Source of the DNA: Stappia indica
GTDB lineage: Bacteria > Pseudomonadota > Alphaproteobacteria > Rhizobiales > Stappiaceae
DNA: 64,000 nt
Direction of reading: 5' to 3'
Assembly (NCBI RefSeq): GCF_009789575.1
Contig: NZ_CP046908.1
Location: forward strand, 124,001-188,000
In this document: one piece after another, positions 35,726-41,263 of the stretch
Layout of the letters: each line of letters starts with the position of its first letter
How positions within the stretch are numbered: position 1 is the first letter of the stretch
Made by a program: the position numbers and the translations under genes
Notes under the pieces: model-generated
The model's database searches: none
What the model saw: only the letters and a program-made list of their open reading frames with translations
Told to the model about the DNA's origin: nothing

Positions 35726-37949
<2,224 letters not shown>

Positions 37950-37986
37950 TCGGGCCCTTACGCCTCAACGCCTGAAACAATGAAAC

Positions 37987-38014
37987 CCGGTGCGCTCCCC
38001 GCGCACCGGATTTT
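37987..38014 (+). terminator. eno terminator
   Basis: CCGGTGCGC and GCGCACCGG form a 9-bp stem around TCCCC, followed by ATTTTG. It ends about 50 bases before the stop of the convergent low-G+C gene. Confidence 0.88.
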
Positions 38015-38065
38015 GTTTGAGGGTAACTTAAGATAATTGCTAGAACATCAAAATAACCCAGTTTT

Positions 38066-39313
38066 CTAGCTAGCCGATTGTATCATTCTCTTGGCTATGG
38101 CGCGATCTATAACGGCCCTTATTGAACTATCGACGTTCTGAAATTTAATTCTTGACATAAATGTGAGCGGTCCGAGTAAGACAAACAACCTGCCAAATAC
38201 CTCATCGGCAAAGCTGCTTGATATTATAGTTATATCTGTAAAATCTACAAGTATTTCTTTATCATTTTCTGATCTTATTAGATTTTCTATATGCAGTCTC
38301 GCGCCAATTCCCGCTTCGCGAGATCCAAAATATTTGCACTCTCGTGACATGGAAAAGATATAAGCCTCCCTATCCCCTAATTCATGCTGCCTCTCAAGGT
38401 AATCAAATCCTGGTTCATGAATTTTCTCTTTGAACATAAGTGCGTTCTCGATCAGCTTTTCATCTCCGCATTCAACGCGGCAAATTACTGCTGTGCCGGG
38501 GTACAGTCTTGTTCCGGATACAGTCTTGACACGGCCAGTTCCCTCAGCACTTAATATCGCTTTGCCAGATATTAGTTCAAATTTTCCGTGGGAGAGCGTA
38601 GCGACACGAAAAGCGCCATAAAGTCCATTACCTTGATTTGTTGCGGGATTCCTAGTCACGCCCTCCTTAATTGCTCTCTCCAGAGCTTTTCTGTCGTCTT
38701 TTTCTCCCAGTGATCTTTTGATGCCAATTCCTGCGTCTGCCACTACAAACTCGATAATCTCACGGTTCTCGGATTTGATGGTACTTGCTTGTATAACTCC
38801 TCCAGTAGGGGAGTTGGCGTGATTTAATACATTATCTGTAATCTCGTTTACAGACCATTCCAAGGCAGCTATTTGTCGCCTCTTAAGCGGAACCGTCTTT
38901 AATATCATAGACATTATGCGATCAATTGACTCAGTAAGTTCGTCCGAATTTAAAAATCTTGAGGCTGGAAGGTGGTGATCATCTTCAAAGGTAGACGCTT
39001 CATTTTCAGTTTCATTTATCAGGTATGCCCAATTTGCGTTGTGAAAAATATTTCTTGCAGCTGCGTTTTCTGGTCTCACGATTGAAAAATCTATTCCATC
39101 GCGACGATAATGACGAATTAGCGCTATTGCCGGAATCATAAAAGATTCCCGAACAGGATATGCTTCTGTGAAGTTTAAGGATATATCTTTGTATCCTCGC
39201 GCGATTATTGTTTGATGAAGCGCGCTCGAGAAATGGAATACACTTCTGGATGCGAGTGTTCCTTTAAGGTTAATGGTATTATTTTCCCATCTAATTGAAG
39301 TTGGAACTTTCAT
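38066..39313 (-). CDS. STAS - GHKL ATPase - DUF4325 (STAS-like) protein
   Basis: 415 residues in three parts. Residues ~8-85 look like a STAS fold. Residues ~145-260 are a GHKL/HATPase domain with the N box SVNEITDNVLNHA, the DAGIGIK (G1) and GNGLYG (G2) motifs. Residues ~320-410 match DUF4325, with the hallmark SSSFADEVFGR. No sensor, HisKA or membrane segment is seen. In partner-switching systems such ATPases phosphorylate a STAS protein, so this single chain may carry kinase and substrates together. The gene is strikingly A+T-rich (about 40% G+C by eye), unlike all neighbours, so it was probably acquired. GTGAGGAAAA precedes the start. It lies 24 bases after the frnE-like stop, on the same strand. 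Confidence 0.8.
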   Translation of the reverse strand: MKVPTSIRWENNTINLKGTLASRSVFHFSSALHQTIIARGYKDISLNFTEAYPVRESFMIPAIALIRHYRRDGIDFSIVRPENAAARNIFHNANWAYLINETENEASTFEDDHHLPASRFLNSDELTESIDRIMSMILKTVPLKRRQIAALEWSVNEITDNVLNHANSPTGGVIQASTIKSENREIIEFVVADAGIGIKRSLGEKDDRKALERAIKEGVTRNPATNQGNGLYGAFRVATLSHGKFELISGKAILSAEGTGRVKTVSGTRLYPGTAVICRVECGDEKLIENALMFKEKIHEPGFDYLERQHELGDREAYIFSMSRECKYFGSREAGIGARLHIENLIRSENDKEILVDFTDITIISSSFADEVFGRLFVLLGPLTFMSRIKFQNVDSSIRAVIDRAIAKRMIQSAS

Positions 39314-39337
39314 TTTTCCTCACTGAAAATCAGGCTC

Positions 39338-40033
39338 CTATCCCGCTTTCGTCTCATAGGCATGCTTGATCGCGGCGGCGAGGGTTTCCGGCTTCTCCGC
39401 ACCCATGACGATGAAGCGCTCGTCGATGATGAAGGCGGGGACGCCGGTGACGCCGATGCGGTGGGCCTGTTCGACGGCGGCGGTGATCTTGTTGCGGTCG
39501 GAATCCGTCGGCAGCAGCTCGGCGACGAGATCCGACATCATGCCGACATCTGCGGCGGCCGAGACCAGCGTCTGCGGGTCGCTGAGGTCCGCGCCTTCCA
39601 GGAAATAAAGGCGGAACAGGCGCTCGGCCATCTCGCTCTGCAGCCCGTCGGCGCGCGACCACAGCAGCAGGCGGTGGCAGTCCAGCGTGTTGGGCGAGGT
39701 GCGGATGCGCTCGAAAGCGAAGGGGATGCCTTCCTGCAGGCCGGCGGCGGCGATCTGTTCGTGCAGCGCATCGATGCGCGCCTGGCTGCCGAACTTCTCC
39801 ATCAGGTAGTGCTGGCGGTCCTTGCCCTGCGGCGGAATGGTCGCGTCCAGCTGGTAGGGCTGCCAGCGCAGGGCAACCGGAACGTCCGGCAGGCTCGCCA
39901 GCGCCTTTTCCAGCCGCCGCTTGCCGATATAGCACCAGGGGCAGACCACGTCGGAAATGACGTCGATGGGCATTGCGGCCTGATCGGGCGAGGCTGCCTG
40001 CTGCCTGTTTGCGGTATCCGTCTCGGCTGGCAT
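39338..40033 (-). CDS. DsbA-family oxidoreductase (FrnE-like)
   Basis: 231 residues from the ATG at 40033 (AAAGGA upstream). Thioredoxin-fold protein with the redox motif CPWC in ISDVVCPWCYIGKRR and the family segment SPNTLDCHRLLLWS; the C terminus has the cis-Pro loop GVTGVPAFIID. There is no signal peptide, so it is cytosolic, as for FrnE/2-hydroxychromene isomerase-like proteins. Role probably thiol-disulfide exchange under oxidative stress. An internal ATG at 39973 would give a shorter form. Confidence 0.88.
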   Translation of the reverse strand: MPAETDTANRQQAASPDQAAMPIDVISDVVCPWCYIGKRRLEKALASLPDVPVALRWQPYQLDATIPPQGKDRQHYLMEKFGSQARIDALHEQIAAAGLQEGIPFAFERIRTSPNTLDCHRLLLWSRADGLQSEMAERLFRLYFLEGADLSDPQTLVSAAADVGMMSDLVAELLPTDSDRNKITAAVEQAHRIGVTGVPAFIIDERFIVMGAEKPETLAAAIKHAYETKAG

Positions 40034-40078
40034 GGGCAGTCCTTTCAAGGGTTGCGCAAGAAGCGTGAAATGGGCGCG

Positions 40079-41263
40079 TCAGGCGAAGGCGGTGCTGGTG
40101 ACGATGGCGCCGATCCGCCGGCGGATGCGCTCCTGCGCCTCCGCATCCCGCAGCACGGCGATATCGCCCAGCCCCTCGACCGTAGCAACAAAATCCTCGT
40201 CGCGCGATGCGGCAAGCGTCGCCGAAAGGACGGGGTTGACAGAAGAAACGGCGAAAGGACCGTCGTTGGCGGCAAGGGAGGCGAGCGGCGGCGGCGCGAT
40301 ATGCGCCAGATTGAGGGTCAGCGGCTCCAACCCGCGCAAGGCCAGCGCGCCGCCCAGGGCCGCAAGATAGCGCTCGAACGCCGCCCGCGGCAGCGCCGGC
40401 AAACCCTTGCCCGAACGATGACGCGGGCGATAGCCGGCCAGCACCCGATCGGCAAGAGCCCGGCGCGCGCCGGCCCGCAACAGGCACAGGAGATGCCGGG
40501 CGAGGATCTGCGGCGCGACCGCGCGGGGCACGCAGTCGCTGGCGCCACTCGTCAGCAGGGCGGCAGCCTCCGCCTCGTCCGCGCACAGCGCCAGCACGGG
40601 CAGGGCGATATGGCGCGGATCGGCGCGAAGGCGGCCGAGAAGCTCGGCCGCGCGGGAGGCGGGCAGGTCGGCCACCATCAGCCGGGCAGGGGCGTCCTCC
40701 AGTGCGGCGAGCGCGGCCTCCGCCGTGAGGCAGCCTCGCAGGTCGAGCGCCGCAAGGTGGGCGCCGAGCGCCATGCCGATACGGGCACTGTCGCCGGCGA
40801 CCAGCACCGGAATGCCGCGGGAGAGGTCCTGGGTTGGGGCTGCTGTCGGCAAGGCGCCTGCGGCCAGAGGGCCGAAGGTAGCCCGGCGCAGCCGCGCTTC
40901 CTCCATCCGCCGCGCCTGGCGCACGGTCTCGGCCAGCCGCTCCAGCGCAAGCTCCGGCGGGCAGGCGGCAGACAGGGTCGCGTCCGGCAGGGCCGCCTCG
41001 TCGCTTTCGGGTGCGGAGACGGGATCGGTACACAGCACGACGCGCGGCACGTGCACGCCTTTGGCGCGCGCCTCCGGGAACCTGCAGGCGGTTTTGCCGG
41101 CAAGGCTCACCACCGCGTCGGGCAAGTGGGAGCCATGCTCGCCGGCCCATGAGATATCGGCGCGTTCGCCCCAGGCAAGGGCAAGACGCGCAAGCGGACC
41201 GTCCGGGCGCTGCGCGGGCCCGTCCAGCAGCACCGACAGGCGGCGGGCGGCCTCCCGGCTCAT
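40079..41263 (-). CDS. PleD-like response regulator with decayed domains
   Basis: 394 residues. The central part (~190-300), from GIPVLVAGDSARIGMALGAHL through VLALCADEAEAAALLTSGASDCVPR, reads as a receiver fold without a standard phospho-Asp site. The C-terminal ~100 residues follow a GGDEF domain (LEPLTLNLAHI, then SRDEDFVATVEG and AQERIRRRIGAIV), but the GGDEF signature is replaced by SRDEDF, so diguanylate cyclase activity is unlikely. The N-terminal third is another divergent receiver-like region. The start at 41263 overlaps the upstream gene by four bases (ATGA), implying coupled translation. Partner and function unknown. Confidence 0.6.
   Translation of the reverse strand: MSREAARRLSVLLDGPAQRPDGPLARLALAWGERADISWAGEHGSHLPDAVVSLAGKTACRFPEARAKGVHVPRVVLCTDPVSAPESDEAALPDATLSAACPPELALERLAETVRQARRMEEARLRRATFGPLAAGALPTAAPTQDLSRGIPVLVAGDSARIGMALGAHLAALDLRGCLTAEAALAALEDAPARLMVADLPASRAAELLGRLRADPRHIALPVLALCADEAEAAALLTSGASDCVPRAVAPQILARHLLCLLRAGARRALADRVLAGYRPRHRSGKGLPALPRAAFERYLAALGGALALRGLEPLTLNLAHIAPPPLASLAANDGPFAVSSVNPVLSATLAASRDEDFVATVEGLGDIAVLRDAEAQERIRRRIGAIVTSTAFA

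Follow-up and report, generated by a model that had tools for sequence, protein, structure and literature searches.

A solitary A+T-rich gene of Stappia indica encodes a STAS–GHKL–STAS (DUF4325) fusion, a candidate mobile one-gene partner switch

The gene at positions 38066–39313 of the window, the 64,000-nucleotide stretch of Stappia indica DNA that was analysed, encodes one chain in which an N-terminal STAS domain, a SpoIIAB-like GHKL domain and a C-terminal STAS domain of the DUF4325 type are joined. It was best explained, with a probability of roughly 0.55, as a mobile one-gene partner switch that unites in one chain what the CapK–CapS and VapK–VapS pairs divide between two proteins, and it probably has a role in defence or DNA-damage stress. 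The homology, the motif conservation and the patchy, transferred occurrence were supported by the sequences compared; phosphorylation of S366, activation by single-stranded DNA (ssDNA), kinase activity and the defence role are proposed by analogy with those pairs.

The open reading frame of 415 residues started with ATG and lay on the minus strand of the window. Its G+C content was 41.5%, with 35.6% at third codon positions, against 65.9% for the window, close to the 40% and 65% that the earlier note had estimated by eye, and the dip in G+C covered about 38000–39400. The gene stood alone between two genes that we take, by eye, to be eno and a frnE-like gene, which agrees with the single-gene insert described in that note. 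The frnE-like gene was located 24 bp upstream on the same strand. No sigma-70-like site was seen on the strand of the gene in 37900–40300, and the fusion gene may be transcribed together with frnE. Neither an integrase nor clear direct repeats were found beside the gene (short repeats only), no tRNA gene was present in the 64-kb window, and no toxin gene or regulated operon adjoined the gene, which was flanked by eno and the frnE-like gene.

38066–39313, minus strand: whole gene, STAS–GHKL–STAS (DUF4325) fusion of 415 residues (open reading frame, Pfam, AlphaFold2 model)
39317–39320, minus strand: AGGA, likely ribosome-binding site, separated from the ATG by 3 nt (sequence)
37983–38013, no strand assigned: terminator-like hairpin that follows eno, where the insert has its left edge (sequence)
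38020–39341, no strand assigned: insert, with approximate limits taken from the empty site of G007 (L010 compared with the window by blastn)

The protein was composed of three regions, assigned as follows.

39005–39313, minus strand: N-terminal STAS, residues 1–103, sensor-type by analogy with CapK/VapK (folds of TM1442, SpoIIAA and RsbS)
38462–38980, minus strand: GHKL ATPase/kinase, SpoIIAB-like, residues 112–284 (1til_E, Z 15.7; family profile)
38066–38383, minus strand: C-terminal STAS/DUF4325, residues about 311–415 plus the stop codon, putative kinase substrate (Pfam, model, VapS profile)

Pfam DUF4325 was matched above the cut-off at residues 341–398 (E 1.4e-11), the matches to HATPase_c_2 and HATPase_c fell below it, and no Pfam match to HisKA was obtained up to an E-value of 1 in the 415-residue protein. 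The AlphaFold2 model was calculated from a 61-row alignment with a mean pLDDT of 93.8 and a pTM of 0.91. When the model was compared with known folds by VIA-align, the best match of residues 112–284 was SpoIIAB (1til_E, Z 15.7, 2.7 Å, 135 residues aligned), and residues 3–103 matched the STAS folds of anti-sigma antagonists (1vc1_A, TM1442; Z 11.2, 2.5 Å, 99 residues aligned); in such match rows the absence of another fold carries no evidential weight. The C-terminal domain modelled alone ranked STAS folds at the top with a Z of about 7, below the level trusted alone (RsbS, Z 7.1; SpoIIAA, 1tid_B, Z 6.8), and its profile matched one PDB sequence, Escherichia VapS (9z7o, E 1.4e-7). The whole-family profile matched VapS and SpoIIAB, and the N-terminus matched STAS antagonists weakly (E 0.02 and worse). 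In the model, a STAS-like fold ended the chain and no helical domain preceded the first STAS.

The combination of STAS, GHKL and DUF4325 regions in one chain, which the earlier note had read from the sequence, was thus borne out by the fold matches and the VapS profile, and the structure prediction it had proposed as a check returned STAS folds and a SpoIIAB-like ATP domain, not a model lacking them. Its statement that the chain has no sensor or HisKA stood for HisKA. The part on the sensor may be wrong, because ssDNA binding has been modelled between the STAS and GHKL domains of CapK. Assignment of the protein as a sensor histidine kinase was rejected, with no HisKA match and a STAS fold ahead of the GHKL domain.

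The residues expected for ATP binding and for phosphotransfer were examined in the 61-row alignment A3, which contained the window protein, the prophage-like copy L021 and 59 of the 80 loci taken from the scan. Seven split pairs, five STAS-only matches, six partial or broken frames (L042, L064, L084, L085, L095 and L103) and three near-duplicates (L049, L099 and L102) were left out of it, and alignment A2 additionally contained L023 and L024.

38819–38845, minus strand: N box, E157–N161–H165 (61 of 61 rows)
38723–38737, minus strand: G1 motif, D193–G195–G197 (D193 in 61, G195 in 60 and G197 in 59 of 61 rows)
38615–38632, minus strand: G2 motif, G228–G230–G233 (61 of 61 rows)
38213–38218, minus strand: S366–S367, putative phosphoacceptor (61 of 61 rows; S366 aligns with VapS S48)

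Residues Trp153, Glu157, Asn161, His165, Asp193, Gly228, Gly230, Gly233 and Gly273 of the kinase half were identical in all 61 rows, so that the N, G1 and G2 motifs named in the earlier note held throughout except at Gly195 and Gly197. In the C-terminal part, Arg332, Asn344, Ser366, Ser367, Phe368, Ala369, Asp370, Glu371 and Arg409 were identical in all rows. The invariance of residues 367–371, Phe373 and Gly374 is partly by construction, because the GTDB-contig scan for the family used the pattern SFADE[VL]FG, which contains them; Ser366 and the GHKL motifs lie outside the pattern. The fused member L184, found by the Pfam model instead of the pattern, reads SSSVADE and has both serines. Ser366 aligned with Ser48 of VapS, whose number was derived from chain position 66 minus an 18-residue tag. 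At the equivalent place of the first STAS (columns 55–58) no serine was conserved, the best column having Ser in 13 of 61 rows. The second STAS therefore looks like a substrate and the first does not.

The aromatic residue that stacks on ssDNA was not clearly conserved. CapK W68 and VapK F54 could be placed only tentatively, through the Deinococcus gobiensis kinase, whose W53 was taken as equivalent by position only. Column 55, which is two residues away from the place inferred for VapK, contained Phe, Tyr or Trp in 40 of 61 rows, and an aromatic residue was found somewhere in columns 51–56 in 47 of 61, spread over several columns. The window protein has Arg55 in this region, with Tyr52.

The pattern scan of GTDB contigs gave a family of at least 80 loci. 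By record labels, the rows of the tree came from ten phyla (Pseudomonadota, Nitrospirota, Gemmatimonadota, Chloroflexota, Acidobacteriota, Myxococcota, Thermodesulfobacteriota, Chlorobiota, Bacillota and Actinomycetota), and many family rows were metagenome bins, the contigs of which can be misassigned. Members were also found in prophage-like and plasmid DNA. Separate, adjacent kinase and STAS genes were present at L108, L109, L111, L112, L113, L115 and L116, and the same adjacent arrangement occurred on the plasmids of L025 and L026; the split form was seen in Coriobacteria, Clostridia and plasmids. Among 11 separate STAS proteins, the position of Ser366 was Asn in seven and Ser in four. In the Asn carriers (L108, L111, L112, L113, L115, L117 and L119), the Asn is aligned with VapS S48, and the serine that follows it is kept. 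In L064, L084 and L085 the fused frame was broken into two reading frames, possibly as pseudogenes, by sequencing errors or in a return to two genes.

In a quick tree of 72 rows, several of them long-branched, all fused proteins were on one side of one branch. A single fusion event fits, because the tree requires one change between fused and split forms. The phylum labels changed 13 times on the tree, compared with a possible minimum of 9 and a shuffled mean of 27.2, and much of the inheritance may therefore be vertical.

DUF4325 was detected in 29 of 398 Pseudomonadota genomes, in 31 frames: 19 of 101–159 residues, six of 335–374, five of 417–443 and one of 533. Fused GHKL–DUF4325 chains are not rare, because 12 of the 31 frames had at least 335 residues and nine of these 12 showed GHKL similarity or a GHKL region. 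The earlier note had regarded the joining of a kinase to its STAS substrate, normally separate proteins, as distinctive; the joining was confirmed, and its uniqueness was not. The form at issue is STAS–GHKL–STAS with an intact serine pair. All six chains of 335–374 residues were without Ser at 366 and 367, reading GQAF (L171, L173, L174 and L183), GPGF (L180) or GHGF (L186), and they are possibly a non-phosphorylatable sister class. Two longer frames and one short frame (L182, L190 and L198) read PHSF at the serine position.

Within Stappia, the gene was absent at the eno–frnE site in 13 of 13 congeners. Full-length homologues were present in two of the 14 genomes of the genus, and two further genomes matched residues 151–249 only. 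At an E-value of 1e-15, a homologue was found in two of 87 genomes of the family, the window genome and Stappia stellulata DSM 5886 (G012), in which it shared 59% identity and occupied a different genomic place. The nearest relative of the window protein by identity was the prophage-like copy. In the quick tree, the S. stellulata gene grouped with prophage-like L021 and not with the window gene (96), an indication that the two Stappia genes were acquired separately. The gene was probably acquired recently by transfer, as the earlier note had argued from composition: absence at the site in all congeners, presence in 2/87 family genomes and a prophage-like nearest relative agree with that claim, and the comparison of the eno–frnE interval it had suggested did not turn up the same gene at this site in relatives.

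The eno–frnE interval (37950–39337 in the window; L027–L039 in the relatives) appeared as a hotspot, with different A+T-rich inserts in 8 of 14 genomes. The inserts encoded STAS–GHKL–STAS, OLD, NACHT, ParA/HEPN, ImmA/IrrE and membrane or coiled-coil proteins. The interval measured 104–374 bp and had no A+T-rich gene in G013, G007, G009 and G004, contained G+C-rich genes only in G006 and G008, and contained A+T-rich genes in G001, G002, G003, G005, G010, G011 and G012, beside G+C-rich ones in G003, G010 and G012. Recognised defence or toxin–antitoxin types were present in four of these seven A+T-rich intervals. Strong PADLOC matches were obtained for G011 (Old, E 2.1e-34) and G010 (RmrA, E 4.3e-24; Pfam Peptidase_M78), and Pfam labels only for G001 (NACHT, E 1.5e-7) and G005 (ParA-like with HEPN_RiboL-PSP, E 2.7e-11); the ParA-like genes of G003 and G005 were of one type. 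The insert of G002 gave no match and that of G012 a weak coiled-coil match only (LmuB, E 5.5e-7). When 13 loci of 4.9–14.8 kb were compared with the window by a permissive test of translated similarity, 12 stretches of 450 bp or more had no counterpart, and all of them were inside the interval. The interval of G012 also contained a second, diverged eno fragment, 61% identical over 46 residues (L030:713–850, in reverse-strand orientation).

The S. stellulata copy was located between genes that by eye are invasin-like and M20-peptidase-like. In G006 this slot was occupied by a 551-residue gene with matches to PADLOC PDC-M55C and HEC-05, and in G005 by a gene that by eye is transposase-like. It was nearly empty in G000, G001, G002, G003, G004, G010, G011 and G013, and the invasin gene was not found there in G007, G008 and G009. 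The occupants of G006 and G005 span L157:5530–7743 and L162:6205–7697 (L162 in reverse-strand coordinates).

In 62 of 63 loci the gene had a lower G+C content than the flanking sequence, the mean difference being 12 points; all these loci had a complete frame and 3 kb or more of flank, L022 and L023 were excluded, and related loci are not independent. In L021, genes for an HNH protein, terminase, portal, protease, major head, neck and head closure were followed by the homologue and then by an integrase. No recognised tail genes were present between the head module and the integrase (L021:398–12384), and the element may be a truncated prophage or a capsid-carrying satellite. A pattern scan of viral contigs gave one locus, and a second scan with an alignment gave the same locus. 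In L048, a candidate defence gene of the PDC-S54 type (E 6.5e-140) was next, 74 nt downstream on the same strand (L048:9310–10554). A PDC-S54 look-alike was seen at the same 74-nt distance in L049 (2288–3532).

Ten neighbourhood genes, chosen for low G+C or by eye, were scanned singly; four gave a PADLOC match at 1e-10 and six gave none. The four were PDC-S33 (RelA/SpoT) at L079, an OLD-like ATPase at L074, a capP-like ImmA/IrrE gene at L075 and a ParA-like gene at L059, the last more distant from the homologue. Judging from gene sizes, L056 probably has genes of type I restriction, PsyrA and PsyrT as neighbours. Pooled PADLOC matches of neighbours, taken without locus assignment or background control, included RT_UG29, PDC-S01, PDC-M05A and PDC-S63. 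No recurrent partner was found among 97 neighbour frames, in which the commonest Pfam families, among the 25 of 109 listed, occurred three times each and were housekeeping families. These frames comprised 89 of 119 automatically called immediate neighbours and eight added by hand, with the glyQ/glyS clade left out; gene calls in the relatives came from a rough ORF picker, and some listed frames are probably not genes.

A divergent member of the family was present at nine beta-proteobacterial loci, some of them close relatives (L094, L096–L102 and L106). A GlyS motif lay at most 40 bases downstream in all nine, and a GlyQ motif or start preceded the gene in seven. In L102, the gene overlapped its neighbours by 4 nt on both sides. 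In Dehalococcoidia, the gene was located after an oxidoreductase gene.

In the proposed mechanism, the half comprising the N-terminal STAS and GHKL domains would work like CapK or VapK. A signal, most likely ssDNA or another cue of DNA damage or infection, would bind between the two domains and turn the GHKL domain into a serine kinase, which would phosphorylate Ser366 of the C-terminal STAS in cis or between copies. Phosphorylation would release the C-terminal STAS from a bound partner, and the release would switch on an output that arrests growth or acts against phages. No adjacent gene encodes the partner, and the output would be either a host protein encoded elsewhere or the STAS domain once it is freed. 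A bolder form, which we regard as tentative and somewhat unlikely, is a complete one-protein immune or stress system with sensor groove, kinase, phospho-switch and effector, in which the freed STAS would itself arrest an infected cell, neither a separate toxin nor a regulated operon being needed. The earlier suggestion of a self-contained switch or phage-conflict protein gains from the precise precedent of CapKS and VapKSC, which the note had not named, the conflict role by association only.

The same chemistry could instead control translation or a sigma/anti-sigma pair in a general stress switch, the gene being a moderately useful accessory that travels. The fixed places beside housekeeping genes in beta-proteobacteria, Dehalococcoidia and Gemmatimonadota are in line with this; a position kept so constant fits a general stress switch equally and is not typical of a defence gene. 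The recurrent housekeeping families among the neighbour frames and the closest folds, which are those of sigma-factor regulators, point the same way. However, such a switch would hardly be expected to be so patchy in the family (2/87), A+T-rich relative to its flanks at nearly all loci (62/63), housed in a cargo slot shared with defence-type genes, carried by prophage-like and plasmid DNA, and closely akin to the anti-phage VapKSC, and we consider this account somewhat unlikely. A role within mobile elements, in lysogeny, induction or superinfection exclusion on DNA damage with the chromosomal copies as remnants, would fit the copy between head module and integrase in L021. It would also fit the split pair L109 and the STAS gene L119, which lie between XRE-like and serine-recombinase-like genes (by eye), and the Francisella prophage KIRK, for which a passage of PMC7924643 places a 293-residue gene and a DUF4325 gene beside cI. 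This role is improbable, given a single locus in viral contigs with the patterns used, a single phage record, and listed immediate neighbours that by eye are mainly chromosomal.

It is equally doubtful that the C-terminal STAS is an autoinhibitory lid on an orphan kinase, the real substrate of which is a STAS protein encoded elsewhere. The six DUF4325 chains of 335–374 residues without the serine pair show that the domain can persist without a phosphosite, but Ser366 is invariant in the subfamily (61/61). The mobile one-gene partner switch was kept as the preferred reading. If it is true, a fused, solitary and widespread version would indicate that no linked effector is needed for the module to work or to be wired to its output, and would provide a one-gene system for dissecting sensing, phosphotransfer and output. 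By gene-fusion logic, the natural fusion supports the pairing of kinase and substrate. Furthermore, the eno–frnE slot of Stappia is a testable place in which to look for other defence systems of one gene.

No description of the fused form was found in the open-licence PMC literature. In PMC13373217, 'fusion' did not occur, and among the passages listed 'fused' concerned epitope tags or a vector title; passages on GHKL in a jumbo-phage paper (PMC7824862) and on a STAS-like protein in PMC9341999 gave nothing further. Residues 102–410 of the window protein matched positions 91–393 of the 1750-position PADLOC DrmA model of DISARM (PDLC02567, E 5.5e-33). The match reflects a GHKL–STAS stretch in the model and not DISARM, because in the other 14 of 15 DrmA-matching genomes (398 searched) the listed matches began at model position 419 or later. 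Membership in DISARM was rejected, the protein having 415 residues with no helicase match, and its flanks being eno and the frnE-like gene; tblastn of the protein against 18 DrmA loci found nothing. The first 400 positions of the model matched, in part, GHKL–DUF4325 proteins, including the GHKL domain of the D. gobiensis kinase, and the model may mislabel GHKL–DUF4325 genes as DrmA.

When compared with SpoIIAB–SpoIIAA and RsbW–RsbV, the window protein shared the GHKL domain, for which SpoIIAB was the best match, and the N, G1 and G2 motifs. They also share a STAS substrate, the phosphosite serine of SpoIIAA being at the place equivalent to Ser366. Those systems consist of two proteins and a sigma factor, whereas the window gene encodes one protein that has an additional STAS at its N-terminus, and no sigma-factor gene adjoins it. 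The HTH–GHKL–DUF4325 chains of 335–374 residues also join GHKL and DUF4325 in one chain (L174 and L183, from full reads), but a start that by eye is wHTH-like replaces the N-terminal STAS, and no serine is found at 366 or 367.

The closest systems are CapK/CapS and VapK/VapS/VapC, in which a STAS–GHKL kinase acts on a separate STAS protein (EMBO J, June 2026; Chambers et al., PMC13373217). Both are DNA-damage-triggered anti-virus systems that control immune operons or a toxin. CapK is activated by ssDNA, the binding of which was modelled between its STAS and GHKL domains, and activation of VapK by ssDNA is a prediction. Direct phosphorylation was demonstrated for CapS S54 and not for VapS; the S48A substitution of VapS abolished phage protection, and S48E left VapS unable to counter VapC (PMC13373217). 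With CapKS, the window protein shared the STAS–GHKL kinase, the STAS substrate with its conserved serine and the defence-type surroundings; it differed in having neither the HTH of the kinase nor the wHTH of CapS, in being fused, and in having no adjacent immune operon to repress.

With VapKSC, the window protein shared a kinase half of STAS followed by GHKL without HTH, and a DUF4325-type STAS substrate half with Ser366 on VapS S48. When residues 44–285 were compared by hhalign with a VapK-like protein of D. gobiensis, the probability was 97.1% (E 6e-11, 240 columns), this ATPase being used as a stand-in for Escherichia VapK. The D. gobiensis gene belongs to an HTH–ATPase–STAS–PIN row on plasmid P5 (L120:2512–4864) that resembles vapKSC apart from an additional HTH gene. 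VapK and VapS are separate chains with a VapC-like PIN toxin in the operon, in contrast to the single 415-codon frame of the window with none adjoining. The VapC-inhibiting C-terminal region of VapS (94–116) has no counterpart here, because in the window protein nothing follows the C-terminal STAS. Separate kinase and substrate proteins were already known from CapKS and VapKSC, and what appears to be new, at the level of sequence, is the fused STAS–GHKL–STAS chain with its serine pair.
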